From assembly GCF_017355955.1 (NCBI RefSeq), contig NZ_JAFFID010000001.1:2604001-2668000 (forward strand): 64,000 nt of DNA. Direction: 5' to 3'. This document shows positions 12,442 to 23,969 of this stretch, piece after piece. The number at the start of each line of letters is the position of its first letter. Within the stretch, counting starts at the first letter, position 1. The notes under the pieces are model-generated. The model was not told the DNA's origin. It did no database searches and saw nothing but the letters and a program-made list of their open reading frames with translations. The position numbers and the translations under genes are program-made. This DNA is from Sabulibacter ruber (GTDB taxonomy: Bacteria > Bacteroidota > Bacteroidia > Cytophagales > Hymenobacteraceae).

Positions 12442-12479
12442 TGTTTTAAGGCTCCTTTTCTTGAAACAAGCTAAAAACG
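12442..12479. repeat. 38-bp dispersed palindrome, copy 2, overlapping a stop codon
   Basis: The halves are TGTTTTAAGGCTCCTTTTC and TTGAAACAAGCTAAAAACG. The right end lies inside the lamin-tail gene: its stop TAG (12473-12471) and the last Arg-Phe codons are written by the palindrome. Confidence 0.65.
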
Positions 12480-15044
12480 ACCGCCCACCACCACCGTTTC
12501 CTTCAGCACCTCCCGCGTGCCCTGCAGGTTGAACAGATCCACCAGTACCACATAATACCCAATGGCGGCTTTGGAACCGGCATCGGTCAGTCCGTCCCAC
12601 TGCAGCACGCTCTCCGCGCCCAGTAAAGTGTTGGCTGAGAGTTTCCGGATGTGCCTGCCCTTGGCATCAAAGATGGTCACGTTGGCCACAAAGCCCTGCT
12701 GGGGCAACCTGAACTGCAAAAGCAAGGCATCATCCACACCATCGCCGTCTGGGGTGATGATCCTGGGCTGCAAGGTAAGTTTACTGGCGGATGGTATAGT
12801 TTCCTGCGCCTGCGAATTCTCATAACCGGGCGTGGCTTTCACGTTGGTAGCCGCCGAATGGAAGTTGGCCGTGGTAGACGGCCCTGCCAACGTGATTCGC
12901 TCCAGGGAAACGCCCTCGGCATCTGAAATGAGTCTGAAGTGCTGACTGCTTTGATAACTCACCTCGTCCATGATGCTGTCGTTGGGTAAGAGCAACACCA
13001 CCGTTCCCGCCTCGTCTGGGAAAGACGGCAAAGAAACCACCTCCATAAACTTCTCTGATTTCCCCTGCGGATATTCTCTGGGCAGAAGCGCTGCGTCTTC
13101 CGTGAGCACCAGGTACTCGCCGGGAGCTAATAAACGATGCTCGCTCGTGATCACTCGGGCGCTGGCTATCTCATTAGTAGTATTACGATTAGCTATCTTC
13201 CAACCCTGCAGATTCAGGTAGTTGGAAGACCGATTGACTACCTCCACAAAGTCTACTCCTCCCGGACTTGGGTTGAACAGAATCTCATTGATGACCACGT
13301 CTCCTTTCTTAGGAGCAGCGGGCAAGAGCACCGTTTGTTGTTGCCCTGCAGCTACATTCCCTGCACAATCCTTCACGCCGTGCACGGTGACGGTATACCG
13401 GTGGTTTTCCTGCAAAGGCGCGGCAAGGGTTAACTCCACTTCGGTTAAATCCGCGGCCAGAAGGCGCACCTGTTGCACGGTGATGCTAGAGGAAACCGTG
13501 TACCTGTTCACCTGCACGGCCTCAGCGCTGTCTACCGGCTCATCAAACTGCAGCACCACTTTTGTAGGCGAGAGCGCGAGAACCTGTTGCAGGACTGGCG
13601 CGGTTTGGTCTACCCGCTGCACTGAATTGGGCTGTCCCGGCGTGCCGCCTTTAGCGTTTTCTGAGGCCGTCCACTGCGAAGCTCCGGTACAATTGCTGTT
13701 CACATCTAGTAACTCCAAACTCCAGCCGCCCTCTCTTTTGTTGTTGTCCCGGTACCAGGAATTGCTGTAGCGCACCACATCGATTAATTGGTTTTCGGCA
13801 TTTAACAGCTCCACGGCATCGCCGGAATCATTGAGCGATGGGAATGTGGAAAGGCCAAGCACCGGACCAAATGGCTGGAAAAGTGCGGTGTCAGTGGCGG
13901 CACAGACAATCAGATAGGCGCCGGGCTTTAATAGATAAGGAGGAAAAACACCCGCATTGGACGTAGCATCTGAATATTGCCACCCTTGCAGATTGAACGT
14001 TTTATCGCTGCGGTTGTAAAGCTCAATGTATTCGGCCTTGGGTAAATCCTGCAAGGGATTCAGGTCTGCGTAGATTTCGGTAATCCTCACGTCACCGGGC
14101 TGCGCCACCGGAGAGTAAGCGAACGTACTGGTCTGGTTTTGGGCTACATTGCCATCAGCATCAGCCAGTCTGAGTACTCGTATCTGGTTGTTTCCTGTCT
14201 CAAACTCCTGCTGGAACTGCAGTTTCACTACCTGCGGGTTTGTGGCACTCCACTCCAGGTTGTTTGGCGTGATGGCTCCGTTCAGCACAAAGTTAGCTGG
14301 GTTGGTAGCATCGGCTTCCAGAATTGGTTCAGAAAAGGTCAGCTCCAAGGTGCTTGGCCCGGTAGCTTTGGTGCTTACTAAACCTGGTGCTCCAATGTCT
14401 TTGATGGTGAAATCATCGAAATAGAATCGTTGGGCATTGGCCTGGGAATACCGGAAAAGTACGCCGGCATAAGCTGAGGCAGTGTAGCGGGAATCCTGCA
14501 CCTCCCCTTGTACTGTGTAGTTCTGCCTGGTGCCAGACACATCCAGCTCCAGGGTCCAGTTGTGGGCGGAGGTGCGCGTTACCCGCACCCAGAACTTGTT
14601 GTCAGCGGCGGCAATGGTTTTGTCTGGCCCGTCAATGATCTTGGTGGACGCGCTGCCATTTTTCCGGAAGAGACTTACTTCGTCCTCCGTGCCGCCCATC
14701 CGCACGAAGTAGCCTTTGGAAGCGCCTTTCAGATCAGGTTCGTCAGAAATTAAATGCACTTCGGCGTAGTTACCGGAGGAGGTGGCAAAATTCAGTTGCA
14801 CGTAGTACTCCCACTGCGCTCCAACTGCCAAAGCGCTGGCGGTTGCCAGATGCAACGTGGTGCCGGTCACGGCGGGTCCGCGGCTCTGCAGTTGTTGGGC
14901 GGCGTTTACCTGGAAAAAATCGGTATCGCCCGTCCAGACAGGGGCATGCGTGAAGTCTCCGTCCGAGAAAGTCTCATGAACTTGCGCCTGTAAAGCCTGA
15001 AAAACCGAGAAGAGTAGAAGAAAGACAAGAAAGAATTGCCTCAT
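12471..15044 (-). CDS. Secreted lamin-tail-domain protein with FlgD-like C-terminus
   Basis: The 857-residue product has a signal peptide (cleavage near residue 20, LQA-Q). Residues 22-212 form a lectin/LamG-like module that starts HETFSDGDFTHAPVWTGD and ends YFDDFTIKDIG. Next come two bacterial Ig-like modules (about 215-310 and 480-575), each followed by a lamin-tail domain (about 318-435 with GDVRITEIYADLNP and AEYIELYNRS; about 580-700 with GDVVINEILFNP and DFVEVVNRS). The end (about 760-857) is a FlgD-like module with FDAKGRHIRKL. This architecture is common for cell-surface or secreted proteins of Bacteroidetes, often T9SS cargo. No enzyme domain is visible. It is divergent from asd. 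Confidence 0.85.
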   Translation of the reverse strand: MRQFFLVFLLLFSVFQALQAQVHETFSDGDFTHAPVWTGDTDFFQVNAAQQLQSRGPAVTGTTLHLATASALAVGAQWEYYVQLNFATSSGNYAEVHLISDEPDLKGASKGYFVRMGGTEDEVSLFRKNGSASTKIIDGPDKTIAAADNKFWVRVTRTSAHNWTLELDVSGTRQNYTVQGEVQDSRYTASAYAGVLFRYSQANAQRFYFDDFTIKDIGAPGLVSTKATGPSTLELTFSEPILEADATNPANFVLNGAITPNNLEWSATNPQVVKLQFQQEFETGNNQIRVLRLADADGNVAQNQTSTFAYSPVAQPGDVRITEIYADLNPLQDLPKAEYIELYNRSDKTFNLQGWQYSDATSNAGVFPPYLLKPGAYLIVCAATDTALFQPFGPVLGLSTFPSLNDSGDAVELLNAENQLIDVVRYSNSWYRDNNKREGGWSLELLDVNSNCTGASQWTASENAKGGTPGQPNSVQRVDQTAPVLQQVLALSPTKVVLQFDEPVDSAEAVQVNRYTVSSSITVQQVRLLAADLTEVELTLAAPLQENHRYTVTVHGVKDCAGNVAAGQQQTVLLPAAPKKGDVVINEILFNPSPGGVDFVEVVNRSSNYLNLQGWKIANRNTTNEIASARVITSEHRLLAPGEYLVLTEDAALLPREYPQGKSEKFMEVVSLPSFPDEAGTVVLLLPNDSIMDEVSYQSSQHFRLISDAEGVSLERITLAGPSTTANFHSAATNVKATPGYENSQAQETIPSASKLTLQPRIITPDGDGVDDALLLQFRLPQQGFVANVTIFDAKGRHIRKLSANTLLGAESVLQWDGLTDAGSKAAIGYYVVLVDLFNLQGTREVLKETVVVGGRF

Positions 15045-16932: not shown

Positions 16933-19900
16933 CTACTCTTTCATGACGCGGTGCACGGTTCTACCATCCACGGTATTCACTACCACCAGATAAGTGCCGG
17001 GCTGCTGCCTGGAAAGATCAAGCGCCACCTTGTTATCAGTGAAATCACCCTTGGTCAGGAGCACTCGGCCAAACATATTCATCACCTGAATAGAAGCACC
17101 TTTCAGCACCGATTGCGGCAGTTCCACGTACACGGTGCCGGTTGTGGTGGGCACCGGATATACTTTCACCGATAGTGCGTCTTTGTCTTTTCTGGGCCCT
17201 ATTTCTGATTTGAACTGCAAAGGAACCAGGTAATAACCGGTGGTATACGGCGGCGTGTCTTTATACTGCCGCACTACCCCTTCCAGTTTCAGCATGCCAC
17301 TTGGGGCAGGCAGGTTGTAGACAGAGGAAGTACTGGGCACCAGCATATTGATGATACCGGCGGTAGACTCCAGCGTCACTTCGAAACCATGGTAGCCCAC
17401 GCCGGTGGTCCACTGACTCTTATCTACCGGGAAGGCCTGGTGAATAGTCACCGGCACCGATTCCAGTTCCTCACCGATGGAAGTCACCGTGGCGCGGGTT
17501 GGCAGCGTGCTGTTGGCCTGCAGCAGGAACAGAGAATCTACCTCCACGCGCAGCAGTCCGTTGTAGTTGCGCAGCATGCCAATGGCGGCTACGCTGTCTT
17601 TCGGCTGCGGCGTGAAGGTTCTTGCCCCCTTCGTGGCCCGATAGAGTTGTACCGCCTTGCCGCCGCTCATCAACGACAGATCTAAATGGGCACTAGACAG
17701 GTTCGGGCTGGCCACTACGCCTCGCAGCAGCACATATTCTCCCACGTGGATTTCCTTACCAGCTGCGTCTTTCTCTCTGGCCTGGGCAATGGTGTACTCC
17801 CGCAGTTCACGAGGCTCGTCGCCGGTGTTTCCACCGCTTGGCAGTACGTAGCGGTACACATTTCCAACCGCAGAGGAGATAATGTAAGCCGTATCCAAGC
17901 CAGGACTCAAAGTGAGGCCACGCAGGTCAGTGCCGTGGATTTCAGGCAGCGGCAGGGTCCAGGAAAGTTTCTGGGCCGGATTGCTGTCATCGCGGAAGAT
18001 AAGCTTGGCGGGCTGGTCACCGCTGGCGTCTACCACCGCGTACATGCGGTTATTGCTGGCCGCGAAGATGGATTTGGAGTTAGAGACAATCCGGATGGTT
18101 TCCTCCAGCTTCCAGGTAGTGCCGTTGGTGCTGGTGTATTTATCAATCTTGTTTCCCGAGATGTACGGTACGTACAGGGTATTTCCTTCCGGCGAAATAG
18201 CCGAAGCCCTGGCCACTGAACCAGACGTACGAGCCGATAACGCGGTCGCATCGGCTAGGGTCACCACGGTTTCAAACGCAGTGGAATCCGTTGCGCTTTG
18301 TTTGAAGATGTAGCTCTTGTTACCGGTTACCGAAGTCACGAAGATGTTTCCTTTGTCATCGGAGGTAGGGTTGGTCAGGGAAATATCGGTATCCACGCGG
18401 GCTAGCGGCTCTCCGGTGTTCACGTCCAGTTTGTACAGAATGGTATTGAACGCCACCAGAATGTTGCCGTCATGGGCCAGGCCAATACCGGTTACCAATC
18501 TCACTTCTTCTCTCAAGCCTTTGAAGTTGATGAAGTGCAAGTACGATTTGTTGCCCTGGTAGAACTCCAGTTTGTCACTGGTGAACTCCCACGGAGTACC
18601 GTCTGGGTTGTTCACCCGCACGCCTCGGCTATAGCCCACAGACCAGACTTTGCCTTTGCGGTCTACCGTTACGCCGTGACCGTTGGTGGTTGGGGCCGGA
18701 GCAAATGCCGCAATACAGTTCCCGTCTGGGTCTTTCACGCGGCAGTCATACACAAAGCCGGCAGCCGGAATCTCCACTGGACCGGTGATTGGCGCATCGC
18801 TCTTGGTCAGTTGCAGCGCCACGGGAGCACTTATACTCACGTTTTTCCCGTCTGAGGCAATCACGCGGTGGTAGAACGTCACGGCCTGGTTGGCCGGGGC
18901 ATCGCCTAACAAGGCAAACCATTCTTCCTGCGGCACGCTGTACTCTGCGTTGAGGCCTACCGGTTGATGCAGCAGCAGTTGGTTGAACTGAGCATCTTTG
19001 GCCAATTGGTAGGTGTAGGTCACGGTGTTCCGTTCGGCATCTGCCTCAGCGTTCCATTTCACAGAGAAGAAGCCTTTGATATTCCGCACCGGATACACTG
19101 TATTGGCATCATGCGAGGTAATCACGGCCATCGCCGGAGCGGCGTTAGCAGGTTTGTAGAGTTGGGTACGCACCTCGCCCTCGGGCAGGGAATCGGTTTT
19201 GATGAGCACGTAGAACGCACCCATGCTCATGAGTTCTTTCACGGCATAATCTGCGGGCAGGCTGCCGGTGAAGGTGCCGTTGCGCCCATCTTTAGATTCT
19301 ACCTTCAAGGCCAGCTTCATAGTACCTTCCTCGGGATACAGTCCCTGATACAGGGCTACCGCGGTTTTCTCCGGAAGGATTGCGCCTTTTAAGCCGCTGA
19401 ACGAACCTACAAACCTGATATCGTTGCCTACTTCTACGGCTTCTACCGTGCCGGTGGCTTGCCCAACCGTGGCCTTGCGCTTGTTGTAAGAGGAAAGTGT
19501 TCCTGCGGCGGCTCCGCTGATGGGCACGTCGCGCCGGATCAGGTGGCCATTGGCGCCTACAATCACCTCTGGCAGACTCTTCTCATTGAACACCGGCATA
19601 GCGTCGGCATCGGGGTGTTTGATCTCAAAGGTAGTGTAGATGATGGTGTCCTGCTCCAGGAAAACATCCATCAAGGTTACAGTGTTAGGTGCCACGGCAT
19701 CATACCCCAGGTACTTGCGCGGACCCGAACCGGCGGCTCCGGCGTTCATGAACTCCACACCTCCGTGCTTGCCCGGATAATACGCGTGGTGGTGACCGCT
19801 GATGTAGGTATGCACATCCAGTTCTTCCATCATGGCCTGCAAGGCGGCCGCGTTGTTCAGGATGTTGCCGGCAGAGTTGTACTCCTGCGCCACGCCATAC

Positions 19901-22425
19901 AGCGGCAAGTGGCCCACCAGGAAGCGGAACTTAGCGGCTTTAGCAGCCGGACTGCTGAACTGCGCCCGCACCCACGCCAGCTGCTCATTACTGATGTTGG
20001 CACTGCTGGCTTCCCAGGACACAAAGAAAATGTCTGAGTCAGCCGTAGGTTTGTAGGAGAAGTAGAACGGATAATTGGTAGTGTCTACCGGGTGCCAGTT
20101 AGGAAAATTACCAGGCTTTCTCCAGTAGTTGAGGGCTTCCTGGCGGTCAACGGGCATACCAGCCGCCGCGTCATGGTTGCCCATGGTGAACGCGAACGGA
20201 ATACCAGCTTCACGCAACGGTTTGGCTACTTTGTTGTCAAAGCCGTTCCACATGTTGGCCACCTGCGTGGCGTTCAAAGAGGCCGATTGCCCGGCAATCA
20301 TATCTCCGCCGGCTACAACCATGTCGGGTTGCCACAGGCGCGGAATCCGTTGCATGATGCTGTCTACCTGCCACTCATAGGTCACCGACCCAAAGCCGGA
20401 GTTCAGATCACTGATCACAGCCAAGCGGAAATCGCCGCGGGCAGGCATCACTTTCACCTGGTAGGTACGGCTGGCGCTGGTGTTGCGCACATCGGTCACC
20501 TCAAACCGGAAGTTCACGTTGCTGTTGACTGCATCTTCCAATTTGTGGGTGAAGGTATAGTCTTGCTGCGGCTGGGCGTTCAGGGCGATGGTGCTGCCCA
20601 ACTGCTGCTCAGAACCACCATCCACCGATTTAAACACCTTCAGCTCTTTCAGGTTGATGTCCTGCACGCGGGTCTCCAGGCTAAGATCCAAATTGAGCGG
20701 CTGCCCAAAAGCATGCCGACCAGATTCTTTACCGCCTTTGAATACCACCTGCGTGAGCGACACCACGCGGTATTCAAAGTTCTTTGACACAGTTCGGCCG
20801 AAGCTGTCTTCCAGCTCAAACCGGAAATGTACCGGCCCCAGCGGGTCAGAGGCTGCGTAGCTGAAGGAATAGGTATGACTAAAACTGCCGTTCAGCGGAA
20901 TATCACCGCCCACCTGTTGCTCTGGATTATCGCCTACTTTCTTGAAAATACGCAGTTTCTGCACTGTAAACCCAGAGTTAGGGCTAGTGAGCAGTAGGTC
21001 AAAAGAGCTGGTGCGGTCTTGTACTACTTCCTCCAGCTCGGTTCCGTTAGAGAACGCAATGGCGGGCATGCTCTCCTCTACTTTCACCAGAGAAATGGCA
21101 TCGGCGGAAACAAACTGTCCCGAGGCCTGGTTGCTGATGACCACGGAGTCATTGGGGCCCAGGTCAAACGTACCTAGCACGTTGAATTTGCTTCCATTCA
21201 AGGTTTGGTTCACGCGCACGGTGTCTGGCGCTGCTCCGCCGGTACGGTAAATGATGTAAGGCGTGTTGGTGCTTCTATTGCTGGCGGCTACCCACCAGGC
21301 ACTCAGCTCATACCGGCCCGCCGATATGCCTTTCAATTTGTAAGAGGCGTAACTTGAACCGTCTCCAGTGGCTAAGACTCTGGCTTTGGAGGTGCCGTAG
21401 AAGCCAGTATTGGAAGACTCAGACCAGGCACCGCGTTCAGCGTAAAGAGCAGTGTTATCAGTGTCATAGACGTGCGTGCGGCGTTTCAGGATCAAGGCCG
21501 TGGGTACGGCCCGCTGCAAACCGGCATCGGAGGGGCGGATGGTGTTCTTTCCCTTAATGGTGAGGGCCGAGGAACCGCCGCCGTCCAGGTTCATGGCTTC
21601 CTGGGCACCAATACTCACCAGCACATCGGCCATTTGAGGCAGGGTGAGTCCGGCACTGATCCCGTCGTTGCGGCCTTCCACCACCATCAGGATAACTTTG
21701 TTGTCAGCGGTGCGGCCAATGGCAGAGCGGGGTTCGCGGTTATCGCCGCTGGCCCACATGAGCTCTTCGTCTTTGGTCATCCGTTTTACGCCATTGTGCA
21801 CCAGCACCGGTCCGGCACCAATGGCTGTAGAAGCCGGCCACAGGGCAGCTCCTTCTGGGTAAGTTGCGGTGGGCTGCTTGGTGAGTTGGTCTACCGGATT
21901 AGGGTTGGGGTATTGGTACATGGTGTTGGCAGCGCCCACGTGGTAAATCCAGGCAATGTCTGCGATGTTGCCGGGCAGCACGCCAAAAGCACTACGGGTA
22001 GGGTAACTGCCACCGGTAGACTTAGCATTGATGGCCAGAACATTGCCCTCCTGCACCGCGGTACCTAAGGCTTCATACGTGGTGGTATTGAAAAAACCTC
22101 CGTTGATGACGGCATACACCGGTTCTTTCTCCAGGGCAGCCCAGGCATCGGGGGTTTTGGCCGAACTGACCCCAGTACCACCGCCATAAACCGCTTTGAA
22201 TTCCATGTTAGGATCGTTCAGGTCTATTAGGGCGTAATACATCCTGAGTGGGGTTACTCCGGGAGCGGCGGGAGTCTCAGAGTAGAATACTTTGATGGAA
22301 GGGGGAAGCCCGGCGTTGAGGTGAGCGGGCTGGGTCCAGGTATACTGTGCGAAGAGCGGCTGTACCCACAGGAGCAGCCACGCCAGAAGCACCACCCGGA
22401 TGGGGAGGAGTACGTTTTTCTTCAT
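16933..22425 (-). CDS. T9SS-secreted phosphodiester glycosidase / metallophosphoesterase fusion
   Basis: This 1830-residue secreted protein has a signal peptide to about residue 26 (LFA-Q). Residues 60-316 form a NAGPA-type phosphodiester glycosidase domain with NLDGGGSSAL (279-288). A golvesin-C-like beta module follows (320-450), then two FN3/Ig-like modules (455-660). Residues 665-935 form a calcineurin-like phosphoesterase with GGDMI (706), GNHD (749), GHLPLY (838) and SGHHHAYYP (876); its first metal motif is SDLNS (672), with Asn in place of the usual His. A CHRD domain spans about 985-1090, a beta-propeller-like region about 1225-1545 and an OB-like module about 1560-1750. A T9SS C-terminal sorting domain (VKVYPVPTT near 1757 to the end) closes the protein. 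It probably cleaves phosphodiester-linked glycans or cell-wall polymers outside the cell. The substrate is unknown. Confidence 0.88.
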   Translation of the reverse strand: MKKNVLLPIRVVLLAWLLLWVQPLFAQYTWTQPAHLNAGLPPSIKVFYSETPAAPGVTPLRMYYALIDLNDPNMEFKAVYGGGTGVSSAKTPDAWAALEKEPVYAVINGGFFNTTTYEALGTAVQEGNVLAINAKSTGGSYPTRSAFGVLPGNIADIAWIYHVGAANTMYQYPNPNPVDQLTKQPTATYPEGAALWPASTAIGAGPVLVHNGVKRMTKDEELMWASGDNREPRSAIGRTADNKVILMVVEGRNDGISAGLTLPQMADVLVSIGAQEAMNLDGGGSSALTIKGKNTIRPSDAGLQRAVPTALILKRRTHVYDTDNTALYAERGAWSESSNTGFYGTSKARVLATGDGSSYASYKLKGISAGRYELSAWWVAASNRSTNTPYIIYRTGGAAPDTVRVNQTLNGSKFNVLGTFDLGPNDSVVISNQASGQFVSADAISLVKVEESMPAIAFSNGTELEEVVQDRTSSFDLLLTSPNSGFTVQKLRIFKKVGDNPEQQVGGDIPLNGSFSHTYSFSYAASDPLGPVHFRFELEDSFGRTVSKNFEYRVVSLTQVVFKGGKESGRHAFGQPLNLDLSLETRVQDINLKELKVFKSVDGGSEQQLGSTIALNAQPQQDYTFTHKLEDAVNSNVNFRFEVTDVRNTSASRTYQVKVMPARGDFRLAVISDLNSGFGSVTYEWQVDSIMQRIPRLWQPDMVVAGGDMIAGQSASLNATQVANMWNGFDNKVAKPLREAGIPFAFTMGNHDAAAGMPVDRQEALNYWRKPGNFPNWHPVDTTNYPFYFSYKPTADSDIFFVSWEASSANISNEQLAWVRAQFSSPAAKAAKFRFLVGHLPLYGVAQEYNSAGNILNNAAALQAMMEELDVHTYISGHHHAYYPGKHGGVEFMNAGAAGSGPRKYLGYDAVAPNTVTLMDVFLEQDTIIYTTFEIKHPDADAMPVFNEKSLPEVIVGANGHLIRRDVPISGAAAGTLSSYNKRKATVGQATGTVEAVEVGNDIRFVGSFSGLKGAILPEKTAVALYQGLYPEEGTMKLALKVESKDGRNGTFTGSLPADYAVKELMSMGAFYVLIKTDSLPEGEVRTQLYKPANAAPAMAVITSHDANTVYPVRNIKGFFSVKWNAEADAERNTVTYTYQLAKDAQFNQLLLHQPVGLNAEYSVPQEEWFALLGDAPANQAVTFYHRVIASDGKNVSISAPVALQLTKSDAPITGPVEIPAAGFVYDCRVKDPDGNCIAAFAPAPTTNGHGVTVDRKGKVWSVGYSRGVRVNNPDGTPWEFTSDKLEFYQGNKSYLHFINFKGLREEVRLVTGIGLAHDGNILVAFNTILYKLDVNTGEPLARVDTDISLTNPTSDDKGNIFVTSVTGNKSYIFKQSATDSTAFETVVTLADATALSARTSGSVARASAISPEGNTLYVPYISGNKIDKYTSTNGTTWKLEETIRIVSNSKSIFAASNNRMYAVVDASGDQPAKLIFRDDSNPAQKLSWTLPLPEIHGTDLRGLTLSPGLDTAYIISSAVGNVYRYVLPSGGNTGDEPRELREYTIAQAREKDAAGKEIHVGEYVLLRGVVASPNLSSAHLDLSLMSGGKAVQLYRATKGARTFTPQPKDSVAAIGMLRNYNGLLRVEVDSLFLLQANSTLPTRATVTSIGEELESVPVTIHQAFPVDKSQWTTGVGYHGFEVTLESTAGIINMLVPSTSSVYNLPAPSGMLKLEGVVRQYKDTPPYTTGYYLVPLQFKSEIGPRKDKDALSVKVYPVPTTTGTVYVELPQSVLKGASIQVMNMFGRVLLTKGDFTDNKVALDLSRQQPGTYLVVVNTVDGRTVHRVMKE

Positions 22426-22751: not shown

Positions 22752-22780
22752 AAAAGAGGTGCCTTATTCAGACACCTCTT
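22752..22780 (-). terminator. Terminator after the lipoprotein gene
   Basis: The arms AAGAGGTG and CACCTCTT enclose an 11-bp loop. On the minus strand they are followed by a run of nine T residues, 120 bp after the stop at 22902. Confidence 0.75.
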
Positions 22781-22832
22781 CTGCAAACTGCTACAGCTTT
22801 CTGTAAAAAGAACTGGCTTTCTGCCGCCTTTC

Positions 22833-22901: not shown

Positions 22902-23969
22902 TTACTGATATTGAATGTACATCGGCTTAGGCGAGAGGGCCAATACCTCTTTTGGCGTGTACAGCTTAGAGCCTTTCTTTTTGGTATCGTTGTAGTAGAA
23001 GATCTTAAAGCCTGTGTACTGCACTGGTTCCCGCTTGATGTAGGTGTTATAGGTGCTTTTCTTCAGGACGCGGTCGCCCCAGCCATCCATGTGCATCACA
23101 AATTGCACGTTGGGCCGCAGCTTGATGTTTTTGTAGTTGGTGACCATGCGCTGGGTAAAACGGTGCACCACCAGAATCTTTGGCGGCAGGTTATACTTCA
23201 CGGCGATATCGTTCAGGAACTGGGTCGCATAGTTGATTTCACTCGCATCCAGGGTACCTATTTTGCGGCCCGGAATGGCTCCGTTCTTCATCGCGAACTC
23301 GGGGTCAATGCCTAAATGCACCTGAGGCAGTTTCAGCCATTGCTCTAAACGTGGTAATTCAGCTTCCACGGTGCTGCGACCAATCTGAATGTCAAGGAAC
23401 ACAATGGCGTTTCTTCTGGCGGCCCAGGCAATTACGGTATCGGCTACGTGGTCGCTCATGCGCAGGCGATACATGCCGCCTTTGCCGGGAGAACCCTGCG
23501 CGGTCACAAAGATCAAATGCAGGGCCGGTTGCACCGGCGTAGAGGGATCTGCGGCCTGCCAGGCTTTCACTTCCCCGTCCAGGCGGTTCAGCATTTTCTC
23601 GGGGGCAATCTCGCCCAGAATGCCCATGCGTTTTGAGAGCGGATTTCCGTAATACGCCACAATTCGTTTATGGGGCAGAATAGCGCCGGGCTTGCTGGCG
23701 GCCTCGTCTTTCACCACAAACTCAGGTTCCCTGGCAGCAGAGTCTGCGGTAGCGGTGGAATCCTTGCCAGGTTTGGCGGCAACTGCCTTGGTAGAATCTG
23801 ATCTGGTTTTGGAAGAGTCTGAAATATGGGCGGTAGAAGGAGCCGCGGCGGCCTTTGCTCCATTGTTTTCTGCCTGCTGGCCCTCAGAACTGCAGGCGCT
23901 CAGGAAAGCAATTCCCAGGACAAAAAGGAGCCGAAGACCCAGGTGGCCTTTCATTAGTTTTGAATTCAT
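22902..23969 (-). CDS. Conserved lipoprotein of unknown function, probable TIM-barrel-like fold
   Basis: The 355-residue product has a lipobox LSAC (Cys26) and an Ala/Ser/Lys/Asp-rich flexible linker to about residue 95. A compact domain follows, with RIVAYYGNPLSKRMGILGE, QPALHLIFVTAQG, IVFLDIQIG, VHLGIDPEF, PPKILVVHRFTQ and the final PKPMYIQYQ. I recognise these blocks from a widespread uncharacterised bacterial lipoprotein family. The alternating beta-strand ends (FLDIQIG, GIDPEF, VVHRFT, MHMDGWG) look like a (beta/alpha)8 hydrolase-like barrel, but I cannot name catalytic residues. ATG at 23969 is the first of two possible starts; Met6 is the other. It is divergent from the response regulator. 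Confidence 0.7.
   Translation of the reverse strand: MNSKLMKGHLGLRLLFVLGIAFLSACSSEGQQAENNGAKAAAAPSTAHISDSSKTRSDSTKAVAAKPGKDSTATADSAAREPEFVVKDEAASKPGAILPHKRIVAYYGNPLSKRMGILGEIAPEKMLNRLDGEVKAWQAADPSTPVQPALHLIFVTAQGSPGKGGMYRLRMSDHVADTVIAWAARRNAIVFLDIQIGRSTVEAELPRLEQWLKLPQVHLGIDPEFAMKNGAIPGRKIGTLDASEINYATQFLNDIAVKYNLPPKILVVHRFTQRMVTNYKNIKLRPNVQFVMHMDGWGDRVLKKSTYNTYIKREPVQYTGFKIFYYNDTKKKGSKLYTPKEVLALSPKPMYIQYQ

Follow-up and report, generated by a model that had tools for sequence, protein, structure and literature searches.

The window, as the whole stretch of 64,000 nucleotides analysed here is called, carries on its reverse strand a gene for a protein of 1830 residues, in which two phosphate-bond-cutting enzyme domains stand in series within one chain. 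The gene is a single open reading frame that begins with ATG. The features of the gene and of its upstream flank are listed below, with residue numbers referring to the encoded protein.

16933..22425, (-): fused gene, 1830 residues, with the layout NAGPA-Golvesin_C-Ig-Ig-MPE-CHRD-(FN3-like)-propeller-(OB-like)-T9SS tail
22348..22425, (-): signal-peptide-like N-terminal stretch, residues 1-26, judged by eye
21472..22293, (-): NAGPA phosphodiester glycosidase domain, residues 45-318, from Pfam, alignments and fold match
21085..21468, (-): Golvesin_C domain, residues 320-447, from Pfam
20761..21078, (-): putative Ig-like module 1, residues 450-555, modeled with beta structure
20452..20760, (-): putative Ig-like module 2, residues 556-658, similar to module 1
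19531..20448, (-): calcineurin-like metallophosphoesterase (MPE) domain, residues 660-965, from Pfam, motifs and fold match
20398..20412, (-): MPE motif I, SDLNS (D-x-N replacing D-x-H), residues 672-676, from alignment
19159..19470, (-): CHRD domain, residues 986-1089, Pfam match below the cut-off here and above it in three relatives
18781..19137, (-): conserved beta module, tentatively FN3-like, residues ~1097-1215, without a Pfam hit
17836..18768, (-): beta-propeller, residues ~1220-1530, SBBP match below the cut-off and propeller fold matches
17191..17823, (-): module named OB-like in the first-pass annotation, residues ~1535-1745, kept in long-form relatives
16945..17163, (-): T9SS type A sorting domain, residues 1755-1827, PF18962 and TIGR04183
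22752..22782, (-): terminator-like stem of 13 pairs with a run of T, lying between the fused gene and its upstream neighbor (22902-23969)

The Pfam matches to NAGPA (PF09992, residues 103-313, E value 4.4e-32, 112 bits against a cut-off of 25), to Golvesin_C (residues 320-447, E value 1.1e-21) and to Metallophos (PF00149, residues 666-882, E value 5.7e-14, 53.4 bits against 21.5) all lie above the curated cut-offs. The C-terminal tail is recognized both by Por_Secre_tail (PF18962, residues 1755-1827, E value 3.7e-8, 34 bits against 27) and by TIGR04183 (32.8 bits against 23), and the large protein is probably exported via T9SS. CHRD (PF07452) scores 21.4 bits in the window protein, under the cut-off of 24.1, and exceeds it in the three fused relatives that were scanned (L084, L083 and L100, with 30.0, 40.5 and 39.1 bits). 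The propeller matches NHL and other propellers in the fold search; the model of the C-terminal half has a mean pLDDT of 53.9 overall, yet reaches 70-90 over most of the propeller stretch. In the model of the N-terminal half, most of residues 110-205, inside the NAGPA domain, are below 50. The first-pass annotation had named all of these domains, and its observation of the fusion is confirmed. Its OB-like module, however, has no Pfam hit in the window protein and is mostly modeled with pLDDT below 50, and its list was missing the two Ig-like modules (residues ~450-658, 27-28% alike) as well as the beta module at residues ~1097-1215. Neither Ig-like module was found in the short fused forms of ~1300 residues.

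The gene is separated from its upstream neighbor by 476 nt. Terminator-like sites are statistically weak in this analysis (8 found, against a mean of 8.8 after shuffling), and the stem at 22752..22782 is the longest of the eight. The stem and the gap together suggest that the fused gene may be transcribed separately from the upstream gene.

Of 16 Rufibacter genomes, 8 carry full-length matches to the protein; one of these is the genome of the window, and the matches in the other seven share 62-95% identity with it. The open reading frame is therefore no chance frame or artefact. In total, 34 fused proteins were compared, which come from several families of Cytophagales, an order that was sampled in part. 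They include one whose contig starts inside the NAGPA domain so that part of it is missing (G165), one in which the frame is broken after CHRD (G226), and the second copy in a Rufibacter genome (G008b). The recurring order is NAGPA, Golvesin, MPE, (CHRD), FN-like and propeller, while linkers and tails come and go; in the fused protein of G247, no CHRD was detected. The fusion in the window is thus no isolated oddity. The earlier idea of joint action had been made to depend on homologues carrying both catalytic cores intact, and they do so, except for the contig that begins inside NAGPA.

The fusion is obligatory for neither domain, since each also occurs alone. NAGPA-Golvesin-T9SS proteins without the MPE domain are found in the genus Rufibacter, and D-x-N MPE proteins without NAGPA are found in Sphingobacterium, in two further genomes (G766 and G609) and, within one order of cyanobacteria, in 11 of the 29 genomes. 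The idea that the stand-alone cyanobacterial genes adjoin NAGPA genes was rejected, as no NAGPA gene was seen at any of the 11 loci (0 to 9.5 kb of flank on either side, in several cases truncated where the contig ends).

NAGPA enzymes cut bonds of the alpha-GlcNAc-1-P type, as exo-enzymes acting on terminal GlcNAc. The signature used here (NGG[FY][FY], PR[TS] and N-x-DGGGS) consists of conserved positions from our own alignments rather than proven catalytic residues. It is present in the window protein as NGGFF (residues 108-112), Arg233, Arg252 and NLDGGGS (residues 279-285), and it aligns with the solved NAGPA chains. Among the 34 fused proteins it is near-invariant, with the positions checked kept mostly in 33-34 of 34; Gly109 is Ala in three, and Arg230 is replaced once. 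The fold and the signature are those of Bacteroides ovatus BACOVA_00430 (3ohg; Z score 19.0, rmsd 3.6 over 215 aligned residues) and of the vertebrate uncovering enzyme NAGPA (6pkg, 6pki, 6pku, 6pky and 6u11). None of these solved chains has a phosphoesterase, in contrast to the window protein.

In the MPE domain, the motif residues are Asp673, Asn675, Asp708, Asn750, His751, His839, His878 and His880, and all eight are the same in each of the 34 fused proteins. Motifs II-V (GD, GNHD, GH and GHxH) are all present. Motif I is not D-x-H in any of the 34 proteins but D-x-N, and the SDLNS sequence at residues 672-676 is as it had been reported in the first-pass annotation. It is no peculiarity of the window protein, as that annotation had treated it, because the same state is fixed in the stand-alone homologues, the cyanobacterial ones included. 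Within the window's own genome, D-x-N is found in 1 of 19 Metallophos matches, and three proteins have D-x-Q. From the alignments, the constancy of D-x-N in fused and stand-alone homologues is taken as the mark of an MPE subfamily, not of decay; the reading of D-x-N as the sign of a dying domain was rejected on this ground and because the other motif positions are invariant.

The closest fold matches of the MPE model are Rv0805 (Z score 20.3, rmsd 3.4 over 243 aligned residues), a cyclic-nucleotide phosphodiesterase, and, tied with it, the glycerophosphodiesterase GpdQ (Z score 19.7, rmsd 2.9 over 231 residues), so that this part of the model matches phosphodiesterases. SMPDL3B (Z score 19.0) and purple acid phosphatase (Z score 18.9) follow. 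As these matches are scattered over the superfamily, they do not give the substrate. The comparison was made with VIA-align, since no MPE enzyme was among the 50 rows listed by plain Foldseek for the N-terminal half, where NAGPA chains stood beside numerous Ig-like or otherwise unrelated entries. A phmmer search of the MPE domain alone against the PDB gave no hits at an E value of 0.01.

In purple acid phosphatases and PhoD, a tyrosine iron ligand sits at GDxxY, after motif II. This tyrosine is missing here (Ala711 in 34 of 34), and the domain is therefore not a purple acid phosphatase, even though purple acid phosphatases are the best sequence hits in the PDB (E value 2.4e-7). A tyrosinate-ligated iron is given as the hallmark of purple acid phosphatases and PhoD in PMC4223295. 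The motif I of ADPRibase-Mn-like proteins, D[VI]Q, is not matched either, the fused proteins having D[LMF]N. The superfamily motif I is worded as DX[H/X] in PMC4334965, and membership in the calcineurin-like superfamily therefore stands.

The neighborhood of the fused gene differs between relatives. Outside Rufibacter, peptidoglycan-recycling genes lie beside it in 7 of 25 loci (L169-L194 without L190, flanks of 10-19.5 kb): murQ and namZ in four, Amidase_2 and GH3-beta-lactamase in two, and GH3-beta-lactamase in one. All seven belong to one moderately supported clade (support 81/74). None of the 13 query genes was found at the other 18 of these loci, and the recycling context was seen at none of the 8 Rufibacter loci (the window, L074, L076, L077, L079, L104, L105 and L190, flanks of 13.5-21 kb; L190 is a second copy in the same genome as L104, and L075 and L078 were left out). 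The count rests on the 13 query genes, so further links may be missed, and it measures recurrence rather than serving as a blind test, because these genes were chosen from loci that already showed the link.

In the four murQ-namZ loci (G888, G092, G076 and G078), murQ and a symporter gene are on one side of the fused gene and NamZ is on the other. The murQ of G888 scores 307.6 bits with TIGR00274, against a cut-off of 302. The first ATG of NamZ is located 21, 123, 43 and 50 nt past the stop of the fused gene, respectively, on the same strand. In G247 and G867, an ATGA overlap joins the Amidase_2 gene to the start of the fused gene. Pfam scans of the neighbors at other fused loci showed no common function (an FeS-assembly-type P-loop NTPase, TauE, a short-chain dehydrogenase, a subtilase and others). 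A cell-wall substrate, proposed earlier with teichoic acids as an example, thus has the murQ, namZ, Amidase_2 and GH3-beta-lactamase neighbors of one clade in its favor, whereas the window's own neighborhood gave no cell-wall clue and no recognized degradative neighbor.

The four murQ-namZ loci resemble the murein-sugar salvage system of Tannerella (MurT/MurK/MurQ and NamZ, PMC10465942) in having NamZ and murQ together with a symporter of the sugar-transport type. On the other hand, the window locus has none of these genes, and the text of PMC10465942, as far as it was available, does not name a fusion of NAGPA and phosphoesterase. Such a fusion is already in print: calcineurin-like domains are also found together with propellers and may be joined to NAGPA (PMC11488536 and its preprint, PMC11188070). 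What is new here is the recycling-gene context. The same source describes Bacillus subtilis ShfP, a large secreted multidomain protein with Ig-like accessory domains and a calcineurin-like catalytic domain. ShfP is a sporulation protein, for which its authors hold lipoteichoic acid to be the likely substrate (PMC11488536, PMC11188070). The likeness drawn here is one of description, and the window protein differs in having no Pfam match to the lamin tail domain, and in having the T9SS tail, D-x-N and an N-terminal NAGPA domain. The 'two-enzyme core' proteins of spore-forming Bacillota also combine NAGPA with a second enzyme and with Ig-like and propeller domains; their second enzyme is, however, a lipocone (TelC) rather than an MPE, and they belong to another phylum (PMC12419801).

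A further parallel in architecture came from plasmids: the N-terminal half matched 12 records, five of which were examined. In Metabacillus dongyingensis, one gene (WP_243551320.1, 1372 residues) has NAGPA near the N terminus and Metallophos near the C terminus, the same order as here. Its MPE domain differs in having Pur_ac_phosph_N in front and D-x-Q in motif I, and it shows a weak local match to the window protein (E value 7e-7, a single comparison). As a different MPE type keeps the same order there, the pairing of NAGPA and phosphoesterase may have arisen more than once. Three of the other records have short NAGPA genes only, as annotated, and the fifth has an unannotated region with a frame of 523 residues.

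In the mechanism proposed here, we infer the substrate, the order of action, the surface location and the metal identity of the fused protein. It would reach the cell surface through T9SS. The NAGPA domain would hydrolyse a sugar-alpha-1-phosphodiester, leaving the phosphate on the acceptor, and the D-x-N MPE domain would next take off this phosphate or cleave the adjoining phosphodiester. The Golvesin, Ig-like, CHRD, FN3-like and propeller modules may keep both sites together and bind the polymer or the surface. Such two-step processing by a T9SS-exported surface protein, with a phosphodiester-linked envelope glycopolymer as the likeliest substrate class, is the reading that we favor from the sequences, at somewhat less than an even chance. 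The relatives with recycling genes suggest that the enzyme pair strips phosphate-linked sugars or polymers from bacterial walls. In the murQ/namZ clade, the substrate would be a polymer on the MurNAc of peptidoglycan, and the cleaned glycan would then be open to NamZ and amidases.

The two domains may instead have unrelated substrates and be tethered for joint export only, in a surface protein that scavenges phosphate and carbon in general and performs no sequential chemistry. The existence of NAGPA-Golvesin-T9SS proteins in the genus and of D-x-N MPEs elsewhere speaks for this possibility, which we regard as rather unlikely, because the order of the two domains is constant in the 34 fused proteins of several families, the Ig spacers appear and vanish while both domains persist, and a second MPE type is likewise fused to NAGPA. 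Processing of the cell's own surface polymer or of lipid-carrier-linked glycans during envelope biogenesis, instead of foreign walls, would suit the window gene, with no degradative neighbor recognized beside it. In plasmids of Paenibacillus cellulosilyticus and Actinomyces oris, moreover, NAGPA genes adjoin GT2/GtrA glycosyltransferase genes, an arrangement that hints at a part in building glycans in other bacteria. Those NAGPA proteins are distant and have no MPE fusion, however, and the neighbors in the informative clade are catabolic (murQ, NamZ, GH20 and GH3-beta-lactamase), so an own-envelope role appears quite improbable.

Two further alternatives concern the MPE domain. Its top fold match, Rv0805, tied with GpdQ, could point to a phosphodiesterase that acts on nucleotides or on nucleic acid outside the cell, with NAGPA serving another purpose; the spread of matches as far as SMPDL3B and purple acid phosphatase and a gene context that in one clade indicates murein sugars leave little probability for this. 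It is very improbable that the D-x-N domain is catalytically altered or non-hydrolytic, with a binding or structural function. The motif I histidine is indeed replaced, and other chemistry is known on calcineurin-like folds, as in the lasso peptide epimerase MslH (PMC10406935), but none of the 34 proteins deviates at the other motif positions, and three proteins of the window's genome have D-x-Q. The amide also has a precedent in human ADPRibase-Mn, an active enzyme with Gln at this position, where it is a metal 1 ligand in a docking model; changing this Gln to His lowered the efficiency 11-27 fold (PMC4334965). The protein also offers a D-x-N metal site for study.

Two-step processing of an envelope glycopolymer can be made more specific. 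The NAGPA domain might cut the alpha-GlcNAc-1-P-6-MurNAc linkage unit and leave MurNAc-6-P, the MPE domain might dephosphorylate it, and NamZ might thereby gain MurNAc ends; we consider this version doubtful. The bond is of the type cut by NAGPA enzymes, which favors the envelope-glycopolymer reading as a whole, and their exo action on terminal GlcNAc counts against that reading, as the linkage GlcNAc is capped by ManNAc. To our knowledge, no enzyme has been described for the linkage-breaking step, and none was named in any title found by our literature search, which is weak evidence. The linkage unit is described as alpha-GlcNAc-1-P on the C6-OH of MurNAc, with ManNAc at O4 of the GlcNAc (PMC7831098, PMC8807736).

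No literature on phosphoesterases of Rufibacter genomes was found. How scavenging bacteria remove wall polymers before they use the glycan has, as far as we know, not been worked out. The usual attachment of wall teichoic acids and other secondary wall polymers to murein is a sugar-1-phosphodiester on MurNAc. The fused protein, whose gene neighbors murQ and namZ in part of the relatives, is a concrete candidate for their removal, and its substrate and the order of its steps become assayable. If wall-polymer removal is true, a role for bacterial NAGPA domains would be indicated, and Gram-positive murein would become food once its wall polymers are detached.

The fused gene in the window is a single open reading frame that combines a NAGPA-type phosphodiester glycosidase and a calcineurin-like phosphoesterase (MPE) in one chain. 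The genes with coordinates in its neighborhood are as follows.

16933-22425, minus strand: fused gene, 1830 residues
22902-23969, minus strand: upstream neighbor, a 355-residue probable lipoprotein without a Pfam match
12471-15044, minus strand: downstream LTD protein, 857 residues, with two LTD stretches, Big_5 and a FlgD_ig/CHU_C-like C-terminus

The domain list of the first-pass annotation holds in its main parts. NAGPA, Golvesin_C, Metallophos and Por_Secre_tail are above the Pfam thresholds in the window protein, while CHRD is below threshold here and above it in three relatives. Golvesin is separated from the phosphoesterase by two Ig-like repeats. A β module with an FN3-like name, a propeller and a further module without an assigned type are located ahead of the tail.

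The upstream neighbor is separated from the fused gene by a 476-nt gap and a terminator-like stem. A VPS10/BNR protein is also encoded upstream, and downstream are a DUF6970 gene, the LTD protein gene and, on the opposite strand, an argC-like gene. Among eight other Rufibacter loci (two of them from one genome, and some on short contigs), the 355-residue and VPS10 genes are upstream in seven, DUF6970 is present in six, and argC and LTD in five. In two Rufibacter loci (L104 in genome G008 and L105 in G014), secreted-type proteins of 443-1540 residues are encoded upstream of the fused gene; they are built from its propeller, OB-like and T9SS-tail modules and contain neither enzyme.

Both catalytic cores are conserved among 34 aligned fused proteins. 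In the MPE, Asp673, Asn675, Asp708, Asn750, His751, His839, His878 and His880 are identical in all 34. In NAGPA, Arg233, Gly237, Arg252, Asn279 and Asp281-Ser285 are likewise identical in all 34, 33 sequences agree at Asn108 and Gly110 (the other has a gap), Gly109 is replaced by Ala in three, and Arg230 is substituted once. Since these signature residues are kept, homologues do carry both cores intact, as would be required for the joint action of the two enzymes that had been proposed from the sequence alone. The MPE is the best conserved part of the protein, with 51-62% identity where NAGPA drops to 31-49% (outside the Rufibacter long forms).

Residues 26-968 were modeled with AlphaFold from 10 sequences, at a mean pLDDT of 66.7. 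The quality is good in the Ig-like modules, middling to good in the MPE, and poor in the middle of NAGPA. With VIA-align, the modeled MPE matches Rv0805 (3ib7; Z score 20.3, rmsd 3.4, 243 aligned residues) and, tied with it, GpdQ (3d03; 19.7, 2.9, 231), followed by rat purple acid phosphatase (18.9, 3.6, 251). The NAGPA region matches 3ohg (19.0, 3.6, 215) and guinea-pig NAGPA (6pku; 16.8, 3.0, 188). These matches to a predicted model support the two folds and do not extend to substrates.

There is one unusual feature in the predicted metal site. Motif I of the MPE, SDLNS (residues 672-676), has D-x-N in place of the usual D-x-H. The pattern D-[LMF]-N is found in all 48 sequences examined, comprising the 34 fused MPEs, 11 stand-alone cyanobacterial homologues, two more Bacteroidota proteins and one Sphingobacterium protein. 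Among the 19 Metallophos matches of the window's own genome, motif I is D-x-H in 12, D-x-G in three, D-x-Q in three (one read by pattern search, as its Pfam match begins past motif I), and D-x-N only in the fused protein. The hallmark Tyr of purple acid phosphatases is absent, as this position (711) is Ala in all 34 fused proteins.

An amide at this position need not mean loss of function, by analogy with human ADPRibase-Mn. In a docking model of that enzyme, Gln27 coordinates metal 1, and with the Q27H mutation three substrates were turned over with 11-13 fold lower efficiency and cADPR with 27 fold lower efficiency (PMC4334965). Asn675 is expected to bind metal 1 through its side-chain oxygen.

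Within a single cyanobacterial order, 11 of 29 genomes have stand-alone D-x-N phosphoesterases (L130-L139 and L081), several of them with twin-arginine-like N-termini, as judged by eye. To our knowledge, they are an uncharacterized family of exported enzymes.

When wide loci are compared, the fused gene is located among murein-salvage genes in 7 of 25 non-Rufibacter loci and in none of 8 Rufibacter loci; the 13 query genes were picked from loci already showing the link, so these counts are descriptive and do not amount to a blind test. The gene order in G888 (L171, family f19) is GH3-β-lactamase, NagX-like, DeoR, symporter, MurQ, fused gene, NamZ and GH20. Its MurQ meets the NCBIfam equivalog cut-off (307.6 versus 302), and its NamZ scores 279.7 bits for PF07075 and 178 bits for PF20732. 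The core of murQ-symporter, fused gene and namZ is found again in G092, G076 and G078, three genomes from the window's own family (genus g3). The distance from the fused-gene stop to the first ATG of NamZ is 21 nt in G888, and 123, 43 and 50 nt in these three genomes, respectively. In G247 and G867, the end of an Amidase_2 gene, whose product has a signal-like N-terminus by eye, overlaps as ATGA with the probable fused-gene start, which in G247 is the second Met of its frame, and a GH3-β-lactamase gene is nearby. In G839, a GH3-β-lactamase gene adjoins the fused gene on the opposite strand. By simple arithmetic, and assuming one murQ copy per genome of about 4.7 Mb, the chance of finding it in a 19.5-kb stretch is about 0.4%.

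The seven loci are not independent, as exactly these seven form one clade in the MPE tree (support 81/74). We read them as one lineage that was rearranged more than once and retained the murein link. The window sits in a different MPE clade, so a corresponding function of its protein would be carried across 52-57% MPE sequence identity. Three NamZ genes are present elsewhere in the window genome.

NAGPA enzymes cut sugar-α-1-phosphodiesters, leaving the phosphate on the acceptor. Release of phosphodiester-linked sugars by these enzymes is described in PMC12419801, and PMC7831098 and PMC8807736 give α-GlcNAc-1-P on the MurNAc C6-OH as the common attachment of wall polymers. By a chain of inference, NAGPA would cut the α-GlcNAc-1-P/MurNAc bond in murein to give MurNAc-6-P, and the phosphoesterase could then clear this phosphate ahead of NamZ action. 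The weak link of this scheme is that the linkage-unit GlcNAc bears ManNAc, and therefore the NAGPA pocket would have to take a substituted sugar, or other enzymes would trim it first.

The pairing of NAGPA with a phosphoesterase as such is not new. Updegrove and colleagues (PMC11488536 and its preprint) describe secreted calcineurin-like phosphoesterases as a broad radiation whose members carry Ig, FN3, propeller and other domains, and some of which are fused to NAGPA; the lipocone paper reports a two-enzyme core in which NAGPA is paired with TelC (PMC12419801); and a Metabacillus plasmid protein, which matches the window MPE weakly, combines NAGPA with a D-x-Q phosphoesterase. Among the titles listed in searches of the open-access literature, no report was found of the Cytophagales form with D-x-N, of its T9SS tail or of the murQ-namZ context.

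NAGPA is also found in other settings. A short NAGPA gene is directly before a 'bifunctional GT2/GtrA' gene on plasmids of Paenibacillus cellulosilyticus (L141, 6431-8431) and Actinomyces oris (L145, 4323-6534), and this arrangement in two phyla makes a link to polyprenyl-phosphate-sugar chemistry possible. Three Rufibacter loci (L107, L108 and L106) have NAGPA-Golvesin-T9SS frames of 581, 565 and 1109 residues, respectively, without the phosphoesterase, and L107 and L108 have a second Golvesin-bearing frame within the same stretch. The window's own genome has a further NAGPA gene in a 342-residue frame (G000:C145:497700-498374).

Matching loci in the genome collection are named as genus Rufibacter, where residues 657-1165 have 93-97% identity in four species and 71-78% in two. 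Full-length matches are present in 8 of 16 Rufibacter genomes. In a draw of the family, 22 of 150 genomes match both NAGPA and the MPE within a single frame; 8 of these are Rufibacter, 13 genus g3 and one genus g6. Strong matches (E < 1e-100) are found in 13 of 50 genomes of genus g3, 6 of 295 in family f19, and 7 of 291 in a draw of the order, the window counted. The draw of the phylum gives 4 of 395 genomes at E 1e-40, two of which have the MPE without NAGPA. This patchy presence, together with the deep conservation, suggests that the function of the fused gene is useful yet dispensable.
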